A DNA stretch of 64,000 nucleotides, taken from positions 1 to 64,000 of IMG/VR virus record IMGVR_UViG_3300049460_000134. The stretch is one strand, 5' to 3'. Source of the stretch: a virus. Below, piece by piece: positions 3,413-41,073 of the stretch (position 1 is its first letter; every line of letters begins with the position of its first letter). The notes under the pieces are model-generated. The model worked only from the letters and a program-made list of their open reading frames with translations, searched no databases and was not told the DNA's origin. Made by a program: the position numbers and the translations under genes.

Positions 3413-4158
3413 TCCTGACAGAAGCAATTCGCGTTGCTGCTCGCGAGCACGCACGCGCCGAATACCCGAACGAGAGCTGCGGCCTGGTCGTCAACGGTTT
3501 CTATCTGCCCTGTCGCAATGTCGCGGCCGATCCCGCGCAAGACTTCGCGATCCATCCGCAGGACCAGGTGAAGGCCTTGAGCCGCGGCAAGATTCAGATG
3601 GTGATCCACTCGCATCCGAATGGTCCAATGTCGCCTACGCAGCTCGACATGGAAGGCCAGGTCAAGTCGGGTGTTCCGTGGGCGATCATCCCGCTCGATG
3701 AGGATCGGATTGGCGAGGCGCTCATCTGGGGTGACGACACCGATATTCCGCCGCTACTTGGTCGATCCTTCGTCCACGGCATCACCGATTGCTATTCCGT
3801 CGTGCGCGACACCTACCGGCTTGGCCGCAAGGGCTGTGCTGCGCAGGGTATCGAGTGGCCGCTTGATCCGATCATTCTCGGTGAAGTGCCGCGCGGCGAT
3901 CAGTGGTGGGCTGAGGGACAGGATCTTTACTCCAAGTTCGAAGAGTTCGGCTTCCGGGCGATCAACTTCTCCGAGATCCGCCCAGGCGACGCCTTTCTCA
4001 TTAAGGTTCACTCGCAGGTTCTGAACCATGCCGGCGTGCTCGTCGGTGGCGGCATGATCCTGCAGCACTTCCCGAACCGCCTGTCTTCGCGCGTTCCTGC
4101 TGGCCTCTGGGCTCGCAACGCAAACGTCTGGCTTCGGCATGAGGCAGTCAATGCGTAA
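3409..4158 (+). CDS. Tail assembly protein, lambda gpK-like (JAMM peptidase plus NlpC/P60)
   Basis: 249 residues; the ATG overlaps the upstream stop. The N-terminal half is a JAB/MPN domain with the metal motif HSHP...TQLD; the usual Ser of the HxH-x7-S-x2-D motif is Thr. The C-terminal half is NlpC/P60-like, with catalytic Cys in TDCYSVV and His in LNHAGVLV. In lambda the equivalent protein acts in tail-tip assembly and may help cell-wall penetration. A longer open frame extends upstream in phase but overlaps the L-like gene completely, so this start is preferred. Confidence 0.9.
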   Translation: MILTEAIRVAAREHARAEYPNESCGLVVNGFYLPCRNVAADPAQDFAIHPQDQVKALSRGKIQMVIHSHPNGPMSPTQLDMEGQVKSGVPWAIIPLDEDRIGEALIWGDDTDIPPLLGRSFVHGITDCYSVVRDTYRLGRKGCAAQGIEWPLDPIILGEVPRGDQWWAEGQDLYSKFEEFGFRAINFSEIRPGDAFLIKVHSQVLNHAGVLVGGGMILQHFPNRLSSRVPAGLWARNANVWLRHEAVNA

Positions 4159-4741: not shown

Positions 4742-7700
4742 ATGTCCTTTCACTTCTCGTTCGAAAATCTCATCCGCGGTTCGAAGGGTGGCGGCAAGGG
4801 CAAGGGCGGCAGCTCTGGCAGTGACGCAAGCAACACGCTGCGCTCGAAGGCGCGCGCTCGCATTATCGAGGCAATCTCGGAAGGCCCCTGCGTCGGTCTC
4901 GTGAATTGGGATAAGTCCGTCTACTACGAAGAGACGCCGATCACGAACCCTGACGGCACGGTCAATTTCAAGAACGTCATTCTGCAGCAGCGTCTCGGCA
5001 CGCCTGACCAGGAGCACCTGACGGGCTTTGCGACCGCCGAGATTCCGTATGATGTCAACGTCAAGGTCGGCTACAACACCGGACCTGTTCAGCGCACGGT
5101 CATCGAGCCGAACGCGACCGCTATCCGCGCGGTCGTCAATATTCCCTCGCTTGCGAGCCAGAACAAGAAGTCCGGCGCGATCGAGACGGCTAGCGTCTCC
5201 TACGCTTTCGAAGTGCGTGGCTACAACGGTGGTTGGCAGCGTGTAGTCACCGAAAACCTCGTCAACCAGAAGACCACGTCCGCAGTCCAGCGCGCGCATC
5301 GCATCGATCTTCCCGACGGCGGTGCTCCCTGGGATGTGCGCATGGTGCGCCTCACGCCGGACTCCGACAACGAGCGCCTGCAGAACGACACGACCTGGGA
5401 AGGTTATGCTGTCCTCATCGAGGGCAAGTTCATCTATCCGCACACGGCGCTCGTAGCGACCGAAGTCAACGCGGAAGACATGGGTAACTCGATCCCGGCG
5501 CGCAAATACCGCTTCCGCGGCCGCATCATTTCGGTTCCGTCGAACTATGATCCGATCGGGCGCATCTACGCCGGTATCTGGGATGGCACGTTCAAGCAGG
5601 CTTGGACCAACAATCCTGCCTGGATCTTCTACGATATCCTCATCAACGACCGCTACGGCCTCGGCGAGTTCATCAATCCCGAAACGGTCGACAAGTGGAC
5701 GCTCTATCAGATCGCTCAGTATTGTGACCAGATGGTCAAGTCTGGCTTCAAGAACGCTGACACCGGCCAGGATATCTACGAGCCGCGCTTCACCTTCAAC
5801 GGCGTCCTGCAGTCTCGCCAGGAGGCCTACAAGGCGCTCCAGCAAATCACGACGACCTGGCGCGGCATGTGCTACTGGTCGCTCGGCCAGGTCTTCGCTA
5901 CCGCCGACATGCCGGCCGATCCGGTCAAGCTCGTCACGCCTGCCAACGTCATTGGTGGCGAGTTCAACTATTCCGGCACGGCCAAGAAGGCGCGCAGCTC
6001 GGTTGTTCTGGTCAAGTTCAACAACAAGGACAATTTCTATCAGCCCGAGCCGGAGCCGGTCACGAGCGATACGGCGCTTGCTCGCTTCGGCTGGCGCGAA
6101 AAGACTGTCGATCTTCTCGGCGCGACTACGCGCGGCGAGGCGCATCGCTATGGCAAGTGGATCATCGACACCGAAGAGAATGAAACCGAGACGGTCGAAT
6201 ACACGGCGTCCTGGGATCATGCCGATGTTCGGCCTGGCGACCTGATCGCAGTTGCGGATCCTCGCAAGGCGCAGATGCGTCTCGGCGGCCGCCTGGCATC
6301 GGCTGGCACGGACTACGTGACGCTCGACCAGCCGTTCGAACGGGCTGAAGGTGAGCTCTACAGCCTCATGATTGCTATGCCCGACGGCACGCTACACAAG
6401 GCGCCTGTCGATACCTGGGCTGACGAAGTCCTGGATGGCGACGGTAACAGCCTCGGCTTCCTGCGCGCGAACCTCGGCGAAGTGCTGCCGCAGCAGCCCG
6501 ACGTCAATACGATGTGGCTTGGCACCGGCACGGATATCCAGCCGCGCCAGTATCGCGTCATTGCCATGTCGGAAGAGAAGAAGAACCAGTTCAAGATCAC
6601 CGCTCTCTTCCACGATCCGAACAAGTTCGCGCGCGTGGAGGAGGGTATCTCCCTCGAGCCGATCACCTACACGCGTCCGAAGGGTCAGGTGGCGCCACCG
6701 ACCGGCCTGAAGGTGCGCGAAGTCTCCTACGTCAACAATGGGCGTCAATACGCGCGGCTCACGCTGTCGTGGGAGGTGCTGAACGACTATACGGTTCGCG
6801 AATACGAGGTCGGCGCTCTGCATCCGACGAAGGGCTACATCAAGCTCGGCACAACCGAAAACAGCTATATGGATCTCGATGATGCCGAGATCGGCCAATA
6901 CACCTTCTACGTCTACGCGATCGGCTACTCGACGCAGCGCTCGGCGCCGGCGACGTTCGACTACGAGTATGTCGGCTTCAATGGCCTGGCAGCGCCTTCC
7001 GTTACGGAGCTGAAGCTCGTCGATAACCCGAACGGGACCGAGTTCACCGGTCGCGACGTGATGATCTTCTGGAAGAATAACTTCCCGTCGTCCACGTCTA
7101 TTCTGGCTGATGACGCTTCGCCGACCGACGAGCAGAGCCCGTTCTATGCCGGTAACACCATCAAGGTCTACCACGCAGACAATGGCCAGCTACTGCGCCA
7201 GCAGCTCGTAACGGGCTCCGGCTTCACCTATAGCTACGAAATGAACAAGAACGACAGCACAGTTGCTGGTCTTGCTCATCCAACGCGCAAGCTGCGCTTC
7301 GAGGTTACGGTCTCGGCGACCTACAACAGAACGTCGGCTCAGGCGACTCTGACCGTGAACAACCCCGTTCCTGGTCTGGTGACGCTGCGCGCTTACGCCG
7401 ACGGCAAGAACATTCTCCTGAATTGGGATAACCCCGCCGAGAGCGACTTCGCCGGCGTCAAGGTTTGGGTCGAAGAGAACAACACGTTCGATCCCGACGC
7501 CACCGTCCCGTTCTATATCGGCCGCAATGATGCCGTCATCTATCCCGCCAAGGAAGTGACGATCTATCACGTTCGCATTGGCGCCTTCGACACGTTCGAC
7601 CAGGACATGCTGATTAGCGCGCCGCTCCAGGTCCAGACCGGTCGCATTCTCGACAGCACGCCGCCGGTCGTTCCGACTGGCCTGGCGCTGGAATCGGCGA

Positions 7701-25337: not shown

Positions 25338-26900
25338 ATGAATTCCGCACAGGCATTGGAGCTGATCGAAGCGATCGGCGCCGCATCCAGCCGAACCGAC
25401 AAGCAGGCGATCCTGACAGGTCTCCTGCAAACGGATCTCGGCAAGTTCATCTGCAAGTGGTCCTACGACCCCTTCATCACTTATGGGATCAAGGTGAAGA
25501 AGATGCCTGCCCAGGTGCCGCAGGACTACATCAACATCACCGATGGCGTCGTTCTGCGCGTTCTGAAGGGTCTGTCTACGCGCGAACTCACCGGCAACAA
25601 AGCAGCCGACGAGATCAACACGCTGTTCAAGGTTCTGAACGAGCCGAGCCGGCAGATCTTCTTCAAGATCCTCGCGCGCGACTGGAAGGTTGGGATCTCC
25701 AACTCGACGATTGCAGCCGTGCTGCCGAACTTCCTACCATCCTTCGGCGTCATGCGTGCGCATCCATATGAGGAAAAGCGCGTTCAGGAATTCCCGATGG
25801 TTGGCGAGCCGAAGCTTGATGGCTGGCGCTCATCATTTATCGCGTTTGCAGGGCAGGGCGCGTTCTTCACACGCTCCGGCTCGGCAATGGATGGCCTGGC
25901 TCACATGGCGCCGGCACTGATGAAGGCGCTCGAATATGTTCGCGACATGCCGATCGATCAGACGGCGGCGACAGAGCTCGGCACGACCGTCGAATATCTG
26001 AACCTGCTGCGACAGGTGGCATCGTTCGATGAGAACGGCCATGCCAACGTCATGATCGACTCCGAGTCCGTGACTGGTCTCTTTGCCACGACCAACGTCG
26101 TTCGTTCGAAGACGGAAGATGCAGAGGCCGAAATGCACGCCTTCGATATCGTGCCTTACGCCGAATTCGTCGATCCGAAGCCCTTCAAGATGCCCTACAT
26201 CAAGCGGCGCAAGGTGGTCGAGCTGTTCGTGAAGATCGCACAGCGCTTCGCCAACTTCATCTACTGGACGCCGCGGAAAGCACTGCACAGCCACGAAGAA
26301 GTCTATGCCTACTACGACGAGTGCCAGAACATGACGCTCGCCAGGTATCTCGCTCGCGGCGACGCAGAGCGCGAGGCTGAACTGCTGAAGGTGCTGGTCG
26401 ACAAGCAGACCGGTCTGCCGAAAGGCCTGGAAGGCGCAATGGTCAAGGATCCACGCGGCTTCTACGAAAAGAAGAAATCCTATTCCTGGATGAAGCTCAA
26501 GGCCGAGGAAACGATCGATCTCTTCATCACCGGCTTCTTCAACGGCGAGGAGGGCACGAAATACGAAAACATGATGGGCGGCGCGATCGTCGATCATGAT
26601 GGCGTTGAGGTGCGCGTCGGCGGTGGGTGGTCGGACGAAGAGCGCGAGCAGCTCTGGAAGGATTGGTGCCACGACGCTGATATTGTCGGTGTTGATCCCC
26701 TGGTCGGCTTCAAGAAAGGCTGGTCAACGAGCTTTGAGTCGATCCAGCGCCACGCACATCGTTTCAAGTTCCTCGGCCGGATGCTCGAAATCAAGTTCAA
26801 CGAAGTCACGCCTGACGGCTCGCTGCGCCATCCGCGCAAGATCCGTTTCCGCGATGACAAGGCCGGCGAAGCAATGCGCGAATGGAAGGCAGCAGCATGA
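25338..26900 (+). CDS. ATP-dependent DNA ligase
   Basis: 520 residues. The nucleotidyl-transfer motif is EPKLDGWR, with the adenylated Lys at 159. Later motifs include EGAMVKDP and YSWMKLKAEETIDL (motif V, final Lys pair). Length and arrangement are like T4-type ligases with a helical N-terminal domain (1-150). It seals nicks during phage replication and repair. The phosphoesterase gene overlaps its stop. Confidence 0.93.
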   Translation: MNSAQALELIEAIGAASSRTDKQAILTGLLQTDLGKFICKWSYDPFITYGIKVKKMPAQVPQDYINITDGVVLRVLKGLSTRELTGNKAADEINTLFKVLNEPSRQIFFKILARDWKVGISNSTIAAVLPNFLPSFGVMRAHPYEEKRVQEFPMVGEPKLDGWRSSFIAFAGQGAFFTRSGSAMDGLAHMAPALMKALEYVRDMPIDQTAATELGTTVEYLNLLRQVASFDENGHANVMIDSESVTGLFATTNVVRSKTEDAEAEMHAFDIVPYAEFVDPKPFKMPYIKRRKVVELFVKIAQRFANFIYWTPRKALHSHEEVYAYYDECQNMTLARYLARGDAEREAELLKVLVDKQTGLPKGLEGAMVKDPRGFYEKKKSYSWMKLKAEETIDLFITGFFNGEEGTKYENMMGGAIVDHDGVEVRVGGGWSDEEREQLWKDWCHDADIVGVDPLVGFKKGWSTSFESIQRHAHRFKFLGRMLEIKFNEVTPDGSLRHPRKIRFRDDKAGEAMREWKAAA

Positions 26901-27866: not shown

Positions 27867-27922
27867 CTAAGCAGCGACGAAGATCAGTTCCTGGTTTTTC
27901 ATTGCGGTCTCCTTGTTACCTT

Positions 27923-27960
27923 GCCTCAGGCTCACACCTGGGGCTTTTTTTTTTTTTTTT
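27923..27960. terminator. Strong intrinsic terminator with a 16-T tract
   Basis: GCCTCAGG pairs with CCTGGGGC around a six-base loop, then 16 consecutive T (27945-27960). It separates the ligase operon from the convergent RepC gene, whose stop codon overlaps the T tract. Confidence 0.92.
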
Positions 27961-29068
27961 AGTGGTGTCGTCGCCGCTTCATCGCCAGGATCTCTTGCTC
28001 GAGGTCCATTTCACCGCACGCCACCTTCCGCGCGGTCGCTCGATAGAAGCCGCCAAAGTTCTTGATGGTCTGCCGGCCTCGCTGATCTGCCGTGTATTGC
28101 TGGAGCACCATGAAGAAGACCACCGCCGCGCGTTGTCGCCCTAATTCGTCGCAGGCTTCCTCCCAGGCGCTCCGGTGCGTCCCAAACACGCCGCGGAGCT
28201 CGGCCGCCGCTTTAACCAGGTCGCCAATGTCTGTCACGCGACCGCAATACTCGATCGCATCAGGGCAGGCGGCCATGATATCGCCCAGCCGGATCGGCTT
28301 GCTCCCCAATCCTTCCGTGCCTTTTGAACAAGGCTGCTCAAAGTTCTCGTTGTTGTTCTTATTGTGACGGCAATTATTGCCGGCATTGGCGGTATTAAAT
28401 AGTTCCTCTGCTTCTTTCGTGAGAGCGCGCCAATCGTTCAGAATGGGGCCAGGAGAGCGTTTCTTCGATCTGCGCGGCGTGTGCTCGGCCAAAGCCTGAT
28501 AACGCTGCTCAAGAGCGCCCGTGTCGATATCGGGGTGATGCTCATGCAAAGCCCTGATGACTTCCATCACTGAGCGCCGAGAGACCGTGACGGCGTCAAA
28601 CTCCTGGCTCCAAATGATCTCCTGCTCGCGCATCCGATCGGCGATGGCCTGGAACTCGTCCTGGCGATCGAGAAGAGGGGAAAGGTCGAAGCCGTAGGCG
28701 TCGATGATCTGCTGCGTGCGGAAGTCTCGCTCGGCATATCTTTTGCCATTCGGAGAGTTTTTCGAGAGCACCAGGCCGGCGCTGATAAGATTGCGCAAGG
28801 CGTTGCGGATCTGCCGCTCGGAATAACCGGTCGCCTGGCACAGCGCATCATTGGACGGCCAGACAAGGATTCTTCCCTTGAGTGGCTCTTTGAAGAAGCT
28901 AATCAACGTCCCGAGGACGGCTATACTTGCCCTATCCAGTTGAAGCGCGCGGTCGGCGAGCTTTTTGACTTGGTAGAGTTTGCGCTTGTCGGCGTCGAAA
29001 TGCTGATTAATCAGTAAGTGCTGACTCGCGGAGAGCTTGCGCCACCCGCTATTGTGTTGAGTCTCCAT
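27959..29068 (-). CDS. repC: RepC-type replication initiator
   Basis: 369 residues, slightly shorter than plasmid RepC (about 400). A winged-helix region (about 70-100, PSNDALCQATGYSERQIRNA) matches the RepC N-terminal DNA-binding domain. The last about 110 residues carry the RepC C-terminal pattern: CPDAIEY, LVKAAAELRGVFGTH, WEEACDELGRQRAA, GGFYRATARKV. In repABC plasmids RepC starts replication at an origin inside its own gene. Here it is on the minus strand, against all neighbours, downstream of an RHH gene. A variant of the phage palindrome lies at 29010-29026 near its 5' end. RepA and RepB partners are not seen. Confidence 0.85.
   Translation of the reverse strand: METQHNSGWRKLSASQHLLINQHFDADKRKLYQVKKLADRALQLDRASIAVLGTLISFFKEPLKGRILVWPSNDALCQATGYSERQIRNALRNLISAGLVLSKNSPNGKRYAERDFRTQQIIDAYGFDLSPLLDRQDEFQAIADRMREQEIIWSQEFDAVTVSRRSVMEVIRALHEHHPDIDTGALEQRYQALAEHTPRRSKKRSPGPILNDWRALTKEAEELFNTANAGNNCRHNKNNNENFEQPCSKGTEGLGSKPIRLGDIMAACPDAIEYCGRVTDIGDLVKAAAELRGVFGTHRSAWEEACDELGRQRAAVVFFMVLQQYTADQRGRQTIKNFGGFYRATARKVACGEMDLEQEILAMKRRRHH
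29010..29026. promoter_or_regulatory. Palindrome variant inside the 5' end of repC
   Basis: ATCAGTAAGTGCTGACT has both arms of the recurrent palindrome with a different centre. It lies about 40 bases inside the RepC coding region. Confidence 0.5.
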
Positions 29069-29121
29069 GACTCTATTTTCCCCATGTCAGGGCAAAACTT
29101 CGCCGTTCGCTCCGAAGAACG

Positions 29122-29230
29122 TTGACAGCGATTCGGTTTCATGGGAAAACACACTTGCTAAGGGTGTTGGGTTTCCCAATCCACGATTTCAGGGCTTCGG
29201 AAGTTACCAGCTTCCGGAGCCCTTTCGTTT
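29122..29230 (+). ncRNA. Candidate antisense RNA opposite the repC leader
   Basis: TTGACA (29122-29127) is a good -35; the matching -10 (GAAAAC, 17 bases on) is weak. Downstream are a small hairpin (TTGGG-TTT-CCCAA) and a 12-bp stem GGGCTTCGGAAG / CTTCCGGAGCCC with TTTCGTTT, a plus-strand terminator. The position mirrors the counter-transcribed RNA that controls repC in repABC plasmids. Inference; no transcript evidence. Confidence 0.45.
29192..29230 (+). terminator. Strong hairpin between the RHH gene and repC
   Basis: 12-bp stem with six-base loop and a T-rich tail on the plus strand. On the minus strand it lies in the leader of repC. Confidence 0.75.
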
Positions 29231-29426
29231 ATGCCGCGTTAAAATCCCTCATTTTCAAAGCCTCTTGCAGTGCAACGGAGATCGCCTCAGACTTCGTGCC
29301 GATCTTGTTCTCGGCCTGGAAGTCGCTCAGCTTGGCGTTCACGTCGGCCGGCAGCCATATGGTCGCCTGGACGAGACCAGCCTGTTTTCGACGGATACGA
29401 TGTTCAGCCATTCTAGCTGCACTCAT
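29229..29426 (-). CDS. Ribbon-helix-helix (CopG/Arc-type) regulator
   Basis: 65 residues from ATG 29426, with AAGGAG at the right distance upstream; a longer in-frame version lacks a ribosome site. ATIWLPADVNAKLSDFQ then a KSEAISVALQEAL helix is the ribbon-helix-helix pattern of small DNA-binding repressors and antitoxins. No toxin partner is adjacent. It precedes repC by 160 bases on the same strand, so control of repC copy number is the likely role. Confidence 0.75.
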   Translation of the reverse strand: MSAARMAEHRIRRKQAGLVQATIWLPADVNAKLSDFQAENKIGTKSEAISVALQEALKMRDFNAA

Positions 29427-29803
29427 ACTGCGAATCTCCTTGATGCACGTTGCGGTCACAAGTGACACCGATTCTGGTGATTTGGCAATACAGCGCGCTT
29501 TTGAAGCACAAGGTTTAGATTCGCTCTGTTTGAAAGAGGGAGCGTAAAGTCGCAATCACTGGATGAATATGAAAAATTATAATCGCATAGGTTTAATTAT
29601 GGAACATCGCGAATCCTTTGTGTTGTGGAAATGTCAACATTTGTGAGATCGCCATTTTTGGGGTATCGAATCCTTCAATTGAAGTGCCATTCGCGTTGAA
29701 ATTCAAGGACTCGAGCCGATTATCAAGCAAATTAAAGATCCCGAATATCCACTCACAAACCTGTCATCCGTCAAGGAGATTACGGAAAATTAATCGACTC
29801 AAA

Positions 29804-29825
29804 GTAAATCAGTATTGACTTACAA
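29804..29825. promoter_or_regulatory. Recurrent palindrome (operator candidate), site 8
   Basis: GTAAATCAGTATTGACTTAC upstream of the XRE-type regulator gene. CTTACA with an 18-base spacer to GATTAT could also form a promoter here. Confidence 0.65.
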
Positions 29826-29849
29826 CCCTTTACGATATCTATGATTATC

Positions 29850-29878
29850 GAAGCAGTCCTGAGTAGCGTTGCTATTAT
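29850..29878 (+). promoter_or_regulatory. Promoter candidate for the XRE-type regulator
   Basis: GAAGCA, GTCC, 17-base spacer in all, then TATTAT (29873-29878). Same pattern as promoters at 40102 and 41013. Confidence 0.55.
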
Positions 29879-29947
29879 CTCAGCATAACAAAACAAAACG
29901 CTGTCAAATAAAGAAATGAAGAGCCAAGTGGAGTGAAGGGTTCACCT

Positions 29948-30367
29948 ATGGAACATAAGAATAAAAAAGAATTCAATCGGCCTTTTGCTGACAGCAAGGT
30001 TTCGAAATTCATGACCAAGCGCATCGAGCAGCTCGGCAAGCCAAACCGCGAAATCGCGCAGGCAGCCGGCTTCACGTCTGGTCCGAACATCATTTCGATG
30101 ATTAAGAATGGCGACGTCAAACTGCCGCTCGATCGTGTCGTTCCGATGGCACACGCGCTGAAGACGGACCCTGCTGCTCTGATGCGCATGGCGCTTGAGC
30201 AGCATATGCCACTCAAGGAATTCCCCGAGATCCGCAAGGTGATGACAGACGTTCTGTCAGAAAACGAGCGCGAGATCCTGGAATTGATCCGTGAGACTTC
30301 CGGTAACTCCGATCCGGGTCTTAACGATCACCGCCGTCAGGCGATCAAGGACGCATTCGCAGCGTAA
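29948..30367 (+). CDS. XRE-type helix-turn-helix regulator
   Basis: 139 residues from ATG 29948; a GTG fifteen bases upstream is an alternative. Residues about 33-56 (NREIAQAAGFTSGPNIISMI) form a Cro/CI-type helix-turn-helix, and PLDRVVPMAHALKTDPAALM is the usual following helix pair. The C-terminal half is helical and may dimerise. The gene has an operator palindrome upstream and further copies at 30439 and 30713. It is therefore the best candidate in the window to bind them. That link is inference. Confidence 0.82.
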   Translation: MEHKNKKEFNRPFADSKVSKFMTKRIEQLGKPNREIAQAAGFTSGPNIISMIKNGDVKLPLDRVVPMAHALKTDPAALMRMALEQHMPLKEFPEIRKVMTDVLSENEREILELIRETSGNSDPGLNDHRRQAIKDAFAA

Positions 30368-30746: not shown

Positions 30747-33248
30747 ATGAACAAAGAAATCGTCATCCTTCGCGAAGCAATCAACAAGATCATTCCAATG
30801 ATCGCAGGCAAAGGCCTGAAGGTCACGCAGATCGGAACTGGTGCTTACGTGAAGGCTCATCCTTCAACGGGTGTCCCGTATCTCGTCAACATTCCATCGA
30901 TTCCAGATAATGCGACTCCGGAGTTCGTGACCTCCATTCAAGGCTTCATCGACCATGAAGTCAGTCACGTCCTTTTCACCGACTTTTCCTACAAGATGGG
31001 TCAGAAGTCGCGCCGGCTGCACAGCCTGCACAACGTCTTCGAAGACACCATGATCGAGCGCAAGATGGCGGACAAGTTCTCCGGCTCGAAGCGCAACCTG
31101 GCGACACTGCGCGCCTGGTTCTGCGAAAACATCACGAAGCCAGCGCTCGCATCCGCAAAGTCTGAAGAGGAAGCTTTCGGCTACCTCCTGGTCGTTGCCA
31201 TGCGAGCGCTCGCCGGCCACCGTGAAATGAAAGACTTCCTCGACGACAATAATCTCTGGGCGCAGCCGCTTCTCGCAGCTCTCATGAGCAAGATGCCGGC
31301 CGATTTCGTGAAGCGCATCCCTCTCCTCAACTCGACGGCTGAAACCTACGACGCCGCCGTCCAGCTCGAAGCAATCCTTTATCCGCCACCGCCACCTGCC
31401 CCGCCGCAGCCTGAGCCTCAGCCGGAAGAACAGGACGAGGATGAGAGTGGCGAAGGCGATCAGGACCACTCTGACGAGGAGCAGACCGGCGACGGTGAAG
31501 GCGAAGGTGAGCGTGAGCACACCGAGGACAACGAGAACGCGTCCGGCGGTGAAGAAGAAGAAGACGACGACATGGAGATCGAGGAGCAAGAGCTCTTCGG
31601 CGATGAGGATGAGGACGAAGATGCCGGCGAAGGTGAAAAGAGCGCCGACGAGGAAACTGAAGCCGACGCTGACAGCGACAGCAGCGACGATGGCGATGAC
31701 GACGCGTCTGGCGAAGAAGATGCCGAAGGCGACGCTGACGGCTCCGAAGATGAAGCCGATGAAGATGCTGGTGAGGATGAGCGTAAAGGCTCCGGCAAGG
31801 CCAGCGACAAAGACGGCGACGCTGACGATGCCGATGATGAGAATGGTTCTGGCAAGTCGTCCGATGATGACGATGACGGAGACCAGGAAGAGGATTCAGG
31901 CGATGCTGCTGACGGTTCGCAAGCATCAGAACCTGACGAGGATGCTGAAGGCGACGACGGTGAGACGGATACCGCCGATCAGTCCGATGGATCTGCCGAG
32001 TCGGAAGTGGACGATCAGGATGATGAGAGCGACGGCGACGCTGGCGGCGGTGATGCCGATGGTGAGACCGAAGAAGGTGATGAAGCCGACGACGAGAGCG
32101 ACGCTGAAGGCGGCTCTGACGTTGCGGTAGAAACCGATAGTGACGACGACGGCGACGGAGCCGAAAAGCCTGAAGAGGAAAACGAAGAAGGCGTGGCTGG
32201 TGTCGGCTACGACGAGCACAACCCCTTCGAAGCGCTCGATGACGATGACCTTGTCGACAAGGATCTGTCCTCGTCGATCGCAATCCTCATTCAGAAGGAA
32301 GCGATCAAAGCCATCCTCTCGTCTGAATACTCCGTTCTGACGCGCCAATACGATCGCATCGAACCGCTTCCGGTTCCGGAGACATTCGCTCAGGAGCACG
32401 TCACGCGGCTCGACGACGCAACGCGGCAGATGACCGGTGTCATGCAGAAGGACATTGAGCGCATGATGGCTGCTCAGTCGCGCGTCTTCAAGGTCGGCGG
32501 TCAGCGCTCCGGTCGTCTGAACGGACCTGGTCTGCATCGCATCATGTCCAACGACGATCGCGTGTTTGCTCGCCGAGAAGAGATCAAGGCGAAGGACACT
32601 GCCGTCTCGCTGCTGATGGACTGCTCCGGCTCGATGGAAGGTGCAAAGCAGGCGACCGCCGTGTCAGCCTCCTACGCGCTCGCAACGACCCTTGAGCGCG
32701 TCAACATTCCTTGCGAGTGCCTGGGCTTCACGACGATGGGCTACATCGGTCGCAACAACACGCAGCAATGGCCCCTCTCCCATCGTCAGTGGGAAGAGCT
32801 GATGGAGCATTTCAACGCCGAAGTCGCAAAGGGCGTCACGTTCCATCGGTTCATGCCGATCTTCATGCCGGTCTTCAAAGGCTTCCAGGAGCGCGTCAAC
32901 GCCGAGATCAAGCGTCGCTTCGCCTACATGCAAATCAAGCAGCCACACCAGGGCGGCAACATCGACGGCGAGTCCCTGGAATATGCAGCGATGCGGCTCG
33001 CGCAGCGCAAGGAAAAGCGCAAGGTCATCATCGTTCTGTCAGACGGTCATCCAGCCGGCGCTCTGAACGATTCCGAGCATCTGAAGATGATGGCCGAGCG
33101 CCTGACGAAGCAAGGCTACGACCTCGTCGGTATCGGCATCAAGGATCACGCTGTCAGCCGCTTCTACGACAAGCATGTGGTGTTGCAGGACATCGCCGAT
33201 CTCCCTGGTGAAGTCATGAAGCAGCTTCGTGTCATCCTGCAGAAGTGA
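30747..33248 (+). CDS. cobT: CobT-like protein: HExxH region, acidic linker, VWA domain
   Basis: 833 residues in three parts. The N-terminal part (1-212) has HEVSH (70-74) and LHNVFEDTMIER, the pattern of metallopeptidase-like domains paired with VWA proteins. Residues about 213-480 are a Pro-rich then extremely acidic Asp/Glu/Ser linker. The last about 220 residues are a VWA domain with a MIDAS motif (MDCSGSM) and CobT-like NIDGESLEYAAMRL and VLSDGHP. CobT works with the AAA+ protein CobS in cobaltochelatase; a CobS-like gene follows at 34096. In phages the pair probably remodels another complex, target unknown. Confidence 0.85.
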   Translation: MNKEIVILREAINKIIPMIAGKGLKVTQIGTGAYVKAHPSTGVPYLVNIPSIPDNATPEFVTSIQGFIDHEVSHVLFTDFSYKMGQKSRRLHSLHNVFEDTMIERKMADKFSGSKRNLATLRAWFCENITKPALASAKSEEEAFGYLLVVAMRALAGHREMKDFLDDNNLWAQPLLAALMSKMPADFVKRIPLLNSTAETYDAAVQLEAILYPPPPPAPPQPEPQPEEQDEDESGEGDQDHSDEEQTGDGEGEGEREHTEDNENASGGEEEEDDDMEIEEQELFGDEDEDEDAGEGEKSADEETEADADSDSSDDGDDDASGEEDAEGDADGSEDEADEDAGEDERKGSGKASDKDGDADDADDENGSGKSSDDDDDGDQEEDSGDAADGSQASEPDEDAEGDDGETDTADQSDGSAESEVDDQDDESDGDAGGGDADGETEEGDEADDESDAEGGSDVAVETDSDDDGDGAEKPEEENEEGVAGVGYDEHNPFEALDDDDLVDKDLSSSIAILIQKEAIKAILSSEYSVLTRQYDRIEPLPVPETFAQEHVTRLDDATRQMTGVMQKDIERMMAAQSRVFKVGGQRSGRLNGPGLHRIMSNDDRVFARREEIKAKDTAVSLLMDCSGSMEGAKQATAVSASYALATTLERVNIPCECLGFTTMGYIGRNNTQQWPLSHRQWEELMEHFNAEVAKGVTFHRFMPIFMPVFKGFQERVNAEIKRRFAYMQIKQPHQGGNIDGESLEYAAMRLAQRKEKRKVIIVLSDGHPAGALNDSEHLKMMAERLTKQGYDLVGIGIKDHAVSRFYDKHVVLQDIADLPGEVMKQLRVILQK

Positions 33249-41041: not shown

Positions 41042-41073
41042 GTTCTTAGCGAATTAGCGAATTCGCTAAGAAC
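41042..41073. repeat. 14-bp perfect inverted repeat in the SSB leader
   Basis: GTTCTTAGCGAATT, four-base loop, AATTCGCTAAGAAC. It begins right after the -10 box, so it would fold at the 5' end of the SSB mRNA or serve as an operator. The unit CGAATTAGCGA recurs at 45109-45119. Confidence 0.85.

Follow-up and report, generated by a model that had tools for sequence, protein, structure and literature searches.

The window, a 64-kb stretch of viral DNA, carries a gene for RepC, a plasmid-type replication initiator, among the genes of a tailed phage. An earlier note on this DNA offered two explanations, namely, a phage-plasmid lifestyle or the recruitment of a plasmid initiator for lytic replication, and the question is which of these the locus supports. 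The window covers positions 1 to 64,000 of a record of 115,555 bp (IMG/VR record IMGVR_UViG_3300049460_000134). Both ends of this contig lie inside the tape-measure gene, indicating a near-full, circularly permuted tailed-phage genome (115.6 kb). We conclude that the virus is very likely a phage-plasmid of the RHEph10/pLM21S1 group whose basic replicon lies in the window, with a lytic or a low-copy plasmid state, a RepC replicon controlled by an RHH protein and a ctRNA (an incA-like antisense RNA), and a separate ParA/ParG-like partition system.

The inverted two-gene island (RepC and a small RHH-like protein, minus strand) was found as the earlier note had described it (Table 1). It is bordered on one side by a GC hairpin followed by the longest homopolymer of the window and on the other side by the AT-rich region that the note had reported. 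The claim that these are the only minus-strand genes held within the window, where they are the sole credible ones among the ORFs conserved in relatives, but not for the genome, in which the partition genes at 93 to 94 kb (beyond the window) are also on the minus strand. The minus-strand ORFs at 3594-3785 and 3754-4140 overlie plus-strand tail genes and were rejected as shadow ORFs.

Table 1. Features of the RepC island and its borders, in window coordinates
Feature	Position	Strand	Evidence or remarks
ATP-dependent DNA ligase, left border of the slot	25338..26900	+	Conserved flank in relatives
Intrinsic terminator, ends plus-strand operon and abuts repC stop codon	27923..27960	+	GC hairpin 27923-27944, then 16 T 27945-27960
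repC, plasmid replication initiator, 369 aa	27959..29068	-	Pfam RP-C 1.7e-37, RP-C_C 7.6e-18
Candidate oriV, AT-rich dip in repC	28328..28417	-	42% GC; lowest-GC 90-bp stretch of the gene
RHH-repC intergenic leader, 160 bp, predicted ctRNA target	29069..29228	-	Similar gap length in relatives and in Microvirga repB-repC gap
Predicted antisense promoter	29122..29150	+	TTGACA 29122-29127, 17-bp spacer, GAAAAC 29145-29150
Predicted ctRNA, ~75 nt, inferred ends	29157..29231	+	Covariance model; terminator
Small RHH-like DNA-binding protein, 65 aa, presumably represses its own operon (RHH-repC)	29229..29426	-	Orthologues upstream of repC; fold
Divergent promoter/operator region between RHH-repC and HTH gene, AT-rich	29427..29932	.	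40.3% GC (window, 57.5%)
HTH regulator, divergent from island, candidate lysis/plasmid-state switch	29948..30367	+	PHROG transcriptional regulator 2.4e-5
CobT-like VWA protein, right border of the slot	30747..33248	+	Pfam CobT_C 5.9e-32; conserved flank

The RepC protein is full length, as had been claimed, with both Pfam RepC domains above the cutoff, and it matched a PHROG of replication proteins (3.4e-59). A search of PDB sequences found no relatives, and the best PDB match of the predicted structure (pLDDT, 86.6) was DnaD. Structures were predicted from alignments of the window proteins with proteins encoded at viral- and genome-contig loci. In the RepC model, a DnaD/MarR-like winged-helix N-terminal part is joined to a helical C-terminal domain through a low-confidence stretch (aa 235 to 255), which adjoins the AT-rich dip of the gene and may be a linker. 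The annotated repC starts of RHEph10 (L010 5998-7101) and V1VFA-S (L007 23507-24619) lie approximately 33 to 50 codons late relative to the conserved N terminus.

Using tblastn, we found RepC relatives in ten Rhizobium phage records (40 to 43% identity) and, as the best plasmid relative (57%), in p5 of Pararhizobium qamdonense, a circular element of 115,652 bp with phage genes. The inverted island lies between the genes for DNA ligase and HTH-CobT-CobS-sigma-DnaE in p5, pLM21S1, Shinella unnamed3, pRlX6, RHEph10, Y2_11, N1_10, X66, and V1VFA-S, and the arrangement is the same in M. oryzae unnamed2 and AMS5 pAMS5a as far as the stretches examined extend. Five of these (p5, pLM21S1, Shinella unnamed3, pRlX6, and M. 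oryzae unnamed2) are circular 115- to 119-kb elements of sequenced bacteria with both the island and its flanks, and others, including RHEph10, were isolated as plaque formers. Relatives are therefore on record both as circular plasmids and as phage isolates, and the window genome is known as a contig. Relatives among viral contigs were recovered by an alignment search, a search for close relatives with the single protein having given none. In pRlX6 (L019 1425-6897), repC is split into two ORFs and the CobT region is in pieces, as in a decaying phage-plasmid or as a result of sequencing errors.

The island is already known from the RHEph10/pLM21S1 phage group (PMC4447125, PMC5537653, PMC12509600). 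The accessible text of these reports describes pLM21S1, a relative of RHEph10, as a plasmid-like prophage that has RepC but lacks an integrase (PMC4447125, PMC5537653) and that mitomycin C did not induce (PMC4447125), and calls B1VFA/V1VFA-S phage-plasmid-like (PMC12509600); in the same text, no member of the group is shown switching between states. The window genome shares with pLM21S1/RHEph10, B1VFA, and V1VFA-S its size, the slot (ligase, inverted repC/RHH, HTH, CobT, CobS, sigma, and DnaE), a ParA module, and the lack of an integrase, although its RepC is only 40 to 43% identical to theirs. It belongs to the group by its inverted RHH-repC island between the ligase and HTH/CobT/CobS/DnaE genes and by a ParA without an integrase. 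The virus is probably able to persist in its bacterial host as a plasmid, as viruses already known do. What the accessible parts of these papers name is parA, parB, and repC, leaving the antisense RNA and the ParG-like partner undescribed (PMC4447125, PMC5537653, PMC12509600). We found no description of the ctRNA, the ParG-like partner, the mixing of phage and plasmid RepCs, or the exchangeable slot in the open-access papers searched. RepC phage-plasmids, formerly recorded as isolated cases, here form a broad group, with 43 phage-context RepC sequences analyzed, whose members share a conserved cassette for plasmid copy control, with an antisense RNA that the Rfam model misses.

The proposed RHH regulator is supported by its positional orthologue in pLM21S1, which passes Pfam RHH_1, and by its fold; its own Pfam score is weak and below the cutoff (MazE-like, 0.0018). 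The gene starts with ATG at 29426, nine bases downstream of a Shine-Dalgarno sequence (AAGGAG), and its product shares 53% identity across 49 residues with the small protein that precedes repC in p5. The predicted fold (pLDDT, 85) consists of a short extended stretch followed by helices 27-40 and 45-64 and aligns with RHH proteins such as NikR and ParD, with no PDB match being significant. RHH orthologues lie directly upstream of repC in most phage members and in many Methylobacteriaceae plasmids. Across the divergent region, the HTH protein is 48% identical to that of p5, and its position is conserved across the group. The start region of the HTH gene (TATGGAACAT, 29939-29956) recurs 349 bp upstream, within the AT-rich gap (29590-29607; 83% over 18 nt). 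No convincing iterons were found in 27900-30000.

RepC had been described as otherwise the hallmark of repABC plasmids. These plasmids do share RepC, but RepC without repAB is not unusual, as in plasmids of Microvirga and Methylobacterium. Like repABC plasmids such as p42d of R. etli (PMC3155836), the window has a RepC initiator, a predicted ctRNA before repC, and an AT-rich, origin-like stretch in repC. In contrast to them, it has an RHH protein upstream of repC instead of adjacent repA and repB (tblastn detected neither RepA nor RepB in the window), its partition genes lie elsewhere and are of another type, and its RepC falls in a separate clade. The RepC-only plasmids of Microvirga and Methylobacterium are closer, with the order RHH-ctRNA-repC without repAB in many cases and a RepC from the same clade; they differ in that the flanks seen (up to 7 kb per side) contain no phage genes, and some have repAB upstream or downstream.

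The slot between the ligase and CobT genes was then compared across a wider backbone recovered by a CobT search of viral contigs. Most of the closer backbone relatives with the slot in view carry RepC. In contig L192, the slot (5349-7236) contains an inverted RPA-type plasmid initiator (RPA, 2.2e-74) and a tyrosine integrase; others hold ParA and an integrase (L174), ParA-ParB (L196), ParA (L211), or an HTH_36 protein that weakly matches RepC-N (L171). The backbone order helicase-primase-ligase-CobT-CobS-DnaE is also that of SSU5-type enterobacterial phage-plasmids, for which tyPPing provides a type-specific set of protein profiles with thresholds (PMC12977533). SSU5, however, has small genes and a tRNA rather than RepC in the slot, and the window CobT is approximately 31 to 37% identical to that of the enterobacterial members. 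Pseudomonas phage nickie has this backbone with ligase, one small gene, and then cobT, without the island; no ParA, integrase, or RPA was detected anywhere in its genome, and it is absent from the RepC matches. The lytic backbone thus works without RepC, whose role is most likely in the plasmid state and not in lytic growth. Relatives that share the backbone but have nothing in the slot offer a natural test of the genes that turn a lytic phage into a phage-plasmid.

The genome of nickie likewise weighs against the second explanation in the earlier note, in which RepC would open the origin for lytic replication before the phage helicase, primase, and polymerase take over. The proximity of repC to phage replication genes and the resemblance of its winged helix to phage O-like and other initiators would fit such a role, but the slots of other backbone relatives hold partition genes or an integrase and not lytic functions, and an inverted gene with an antisense-RNA brake suits copy control, not a burst. 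We therefore consider recruitment for lytic growth unlikely. The phage-plasmid lifestyle, on the other hand, is well supported by the island in circular elements of the same size, the ParA and ParG-like pair, the absence of a detected integrase, and the mixed RepC tree described below.

The RepC of repABC plasmids is known as an incompatibility factor (PMC3155836), and the island might act mainly in incompatibility or superinfection exclusion, in which case the ctRNA and RepC would block related phage-plasmids or plasmids of the repABC type. This seems very unlikely to us, given that incompatibility follows from replication control without a separate purpose and that a complete initiator with both domains has been retained. 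We give hardly any credence to a recent passive insertion or a functionless relic: the split repC of pRlX6 indicates that decay occurs in the group, but the window RepC is intact, and the order RHH-ctRNA-repC has been kept in the same slot across very divergent members (RepC identity down to approximately 33%).

For the phage-plasmid reading, gene content, synteny, antisense-element homology, origin-like composition, and phylogeny are in hand, and from these we infer transcription, repression, replication, and partition activities. After infection, the virus would either replicate lytically with the phage helicase, primase, DnaE, and ligase or be maintained as a circular plasmid of low copy number. 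As a plasmid, it would produce RepC from the minus-strand RHH-repC operon, and this RepC, acting mainly in cis, would open an AT-rich origin within its own gene. Copy number would be restrained at two levels, by a putative autorepression through the RHH protein and by the ctRNA, a plus-strand RNA that would pair with the repC leader and lower RepC levels, as the ctRNA of repABC plasmids does. The separate ParA and ParG-like pair would provide partition, and the divergent HTH protein may be the switch.

The predicted ctRNA ends in an intrinsic terminator with a 15-pair hairpin (29191-29223, plus strand); the -10 hexamer of its promoter is poor. Relatives have the same gap layout, and so does a genuine repABC plasmid of Microvirga between repB and repC. 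An antisense-strand TTGAC is present within the gap at 132 of 132 RepC loci (43 phage, 28 repC-only, 3 repC-repAB, and 58 repABC), which are related sequences and not 132 independent events, and it lies approximately 50 to 67 nt upstream of repC in all but one, where it is slightly displaced. The consensus fold keeps the terminator stem, with two-sided changes in 7 of 12 pairs. With a covariance model (R1) built from 14 phage loci outside the clade of the window, the top match in a search space of 532 kb was the window itself (29123-29244, plus strand; 48 bits; E = 1.5e-8) and the second was the Microvirga repABC site (E = 6.7e-8), these E-values being rough. In the repABC operons of Mesorhizobium and Sinorhizobium, the model found sites that scored lower (22.7 and 21.3 bits) but were correctly placed.

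Rfam gave no credible match on the island, its ctRNA family missing the window. The Rfam families RF00489/RF00490 (ctRNA_p42d and S-element) match canonical repABC operons (e.g., L096 6743-6898 and L021 2263-2416) but not the phage forms of this group, with no match in the window, the Microvirga plasmid (L016), or pLM21S1 (L003), and a conserved sense-leader switch like the Rfam S-element was unsupported in the window. Together with the R1 matches, this identifies the RHH-repC gap, by sequence and structure, as the site of a repABC ctRNA homologue whose form lies outside Rfam coverage. The Rfam ctRNA family could be extended to the phage and Microvirga forms.

In p42d, RepC is the sole operon protein required for replication and acts in cis, and oriV maps to an AT-rich stretch of repC or its vicinity (PMC3155836). 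The composition of the window repC fits this placement, as does a perfect 7+1+7 dyad (CGGCAAT-T-ATTGCCG, 28368-28382) inside the dip, which makes the dip a candidate origin. A dip occurs at an equal relative position (0.6) in 35 of 43 phage repC genes and 56 of 58 repABC repC genes. Dyads in the AT-rich part exceeded those in synonymous-codon shuffles (P ≤ 0.1) in 20 of the 43 phages, compared with 0 to 4 for the other parts tested.

The earlier note had proposed a search for parA and parB beyond the window. ParA is encoded at 93414-94055 of the full record (G000; minus strand) and is 67% identical to that of p5; as read from the sequence, its gene overlaps a small ParG-like gene by 4 bp. A small ParA ATPase with a 4-bp-overlapping small gene resembles ParFG (type Ib) partition, the ParG likeness coming only through the p5 orthologue of the small protein (PDB 1p94 ParG, 8.6e-4; Pfam ParG, 3.5e-4, just below the cutoff), with no Pfam ParG match for the window genome's own protein. 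In pLM21S1 and V1VFA-S, parA is likewise followed by an overlapping small gene, whose product has no Pfam match. The search for parB turned up two ParB_N proteins near the terminase, and no ParB HTH domain (HTH_ParB) was detected in the genome. We therefore rejected these proteins as the centromere binder in favor of the ParG-like protein, and the "parB" of published annotations may not be a centromere binder. No integrase or resolvase was detected in the genome (Phage_integrase PF00589 and PF00239).

A palindrome, TTAGCGAATTCGCTAA, and near copies of it occur in the window (41046-41069) and at 89230, 89633, 94073, and 95750 of G000 (L005 5230-11765), as well as in p5 (L009 40819-49192 and L002 9015-9038; 10 copies in L009 versus 0.3 expected). 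Such palindromes are far above chance in both genomes, clustered around parA and in intergenic gaps, and absent from the pLM21S1 stretch tested. They are candidate operators or centromere sites.

RepC phylogeny, which the earlier note had suggested as a check, mixed phage and plasmid copies rather than placing this RepC among strictly lytic phages only. The RepCs of the group's phages and of Methylobacteriaceae plasmids formed one group (SH-aLRT, 100) apart from canonical repABC RepCs. In a second, careful tree, built from 61 sequences with canonical RepC as the root, the phage label required 8 changes, at least 7 of them forced by well-supported branches, with the qualification that some plasmid labels were assigned only because up to 7 kb of flanking sequence showed no phage genes and a few may be mislabeled. 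Phages formed a single clade in 0 of 200 bootstrap trees. The RepC of pMRAD01 (586 kb; repC-repA-repB) was sister to that of the M. oryzae phage-plasmid. With at least 7 switches between phage and plasmid, phages may seed the plasmid replicons of rhizobia and methylobacteria. On balance, we lean toward a siphophage superfamily of approximately 100 to 120 kb, ranging from SSU5-like to alphaproteobacterial members, in which one lytic backbone has a single ligase-CobT slot that exchanges plasmid-state modules (RHH-ctRNA-repC, RPA and integrase, ParA and integrase, ParAB, or nothing); the RepC version would have moved repeatedly between phages and plasmids with its antisense-RNA copy control, so that phages would supply replicons to the plasmids of alphaproteobacteria.

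Near nif genes on pRLb1, a symbiosis plasmid of R. leguminosarum, there is a solo RHH-ctRNA-repC cassette (L014 7634-9122). Its RepC is nested within those of Rhizobium phages, a position in the tree that suggests capture of the cassette from a phage.
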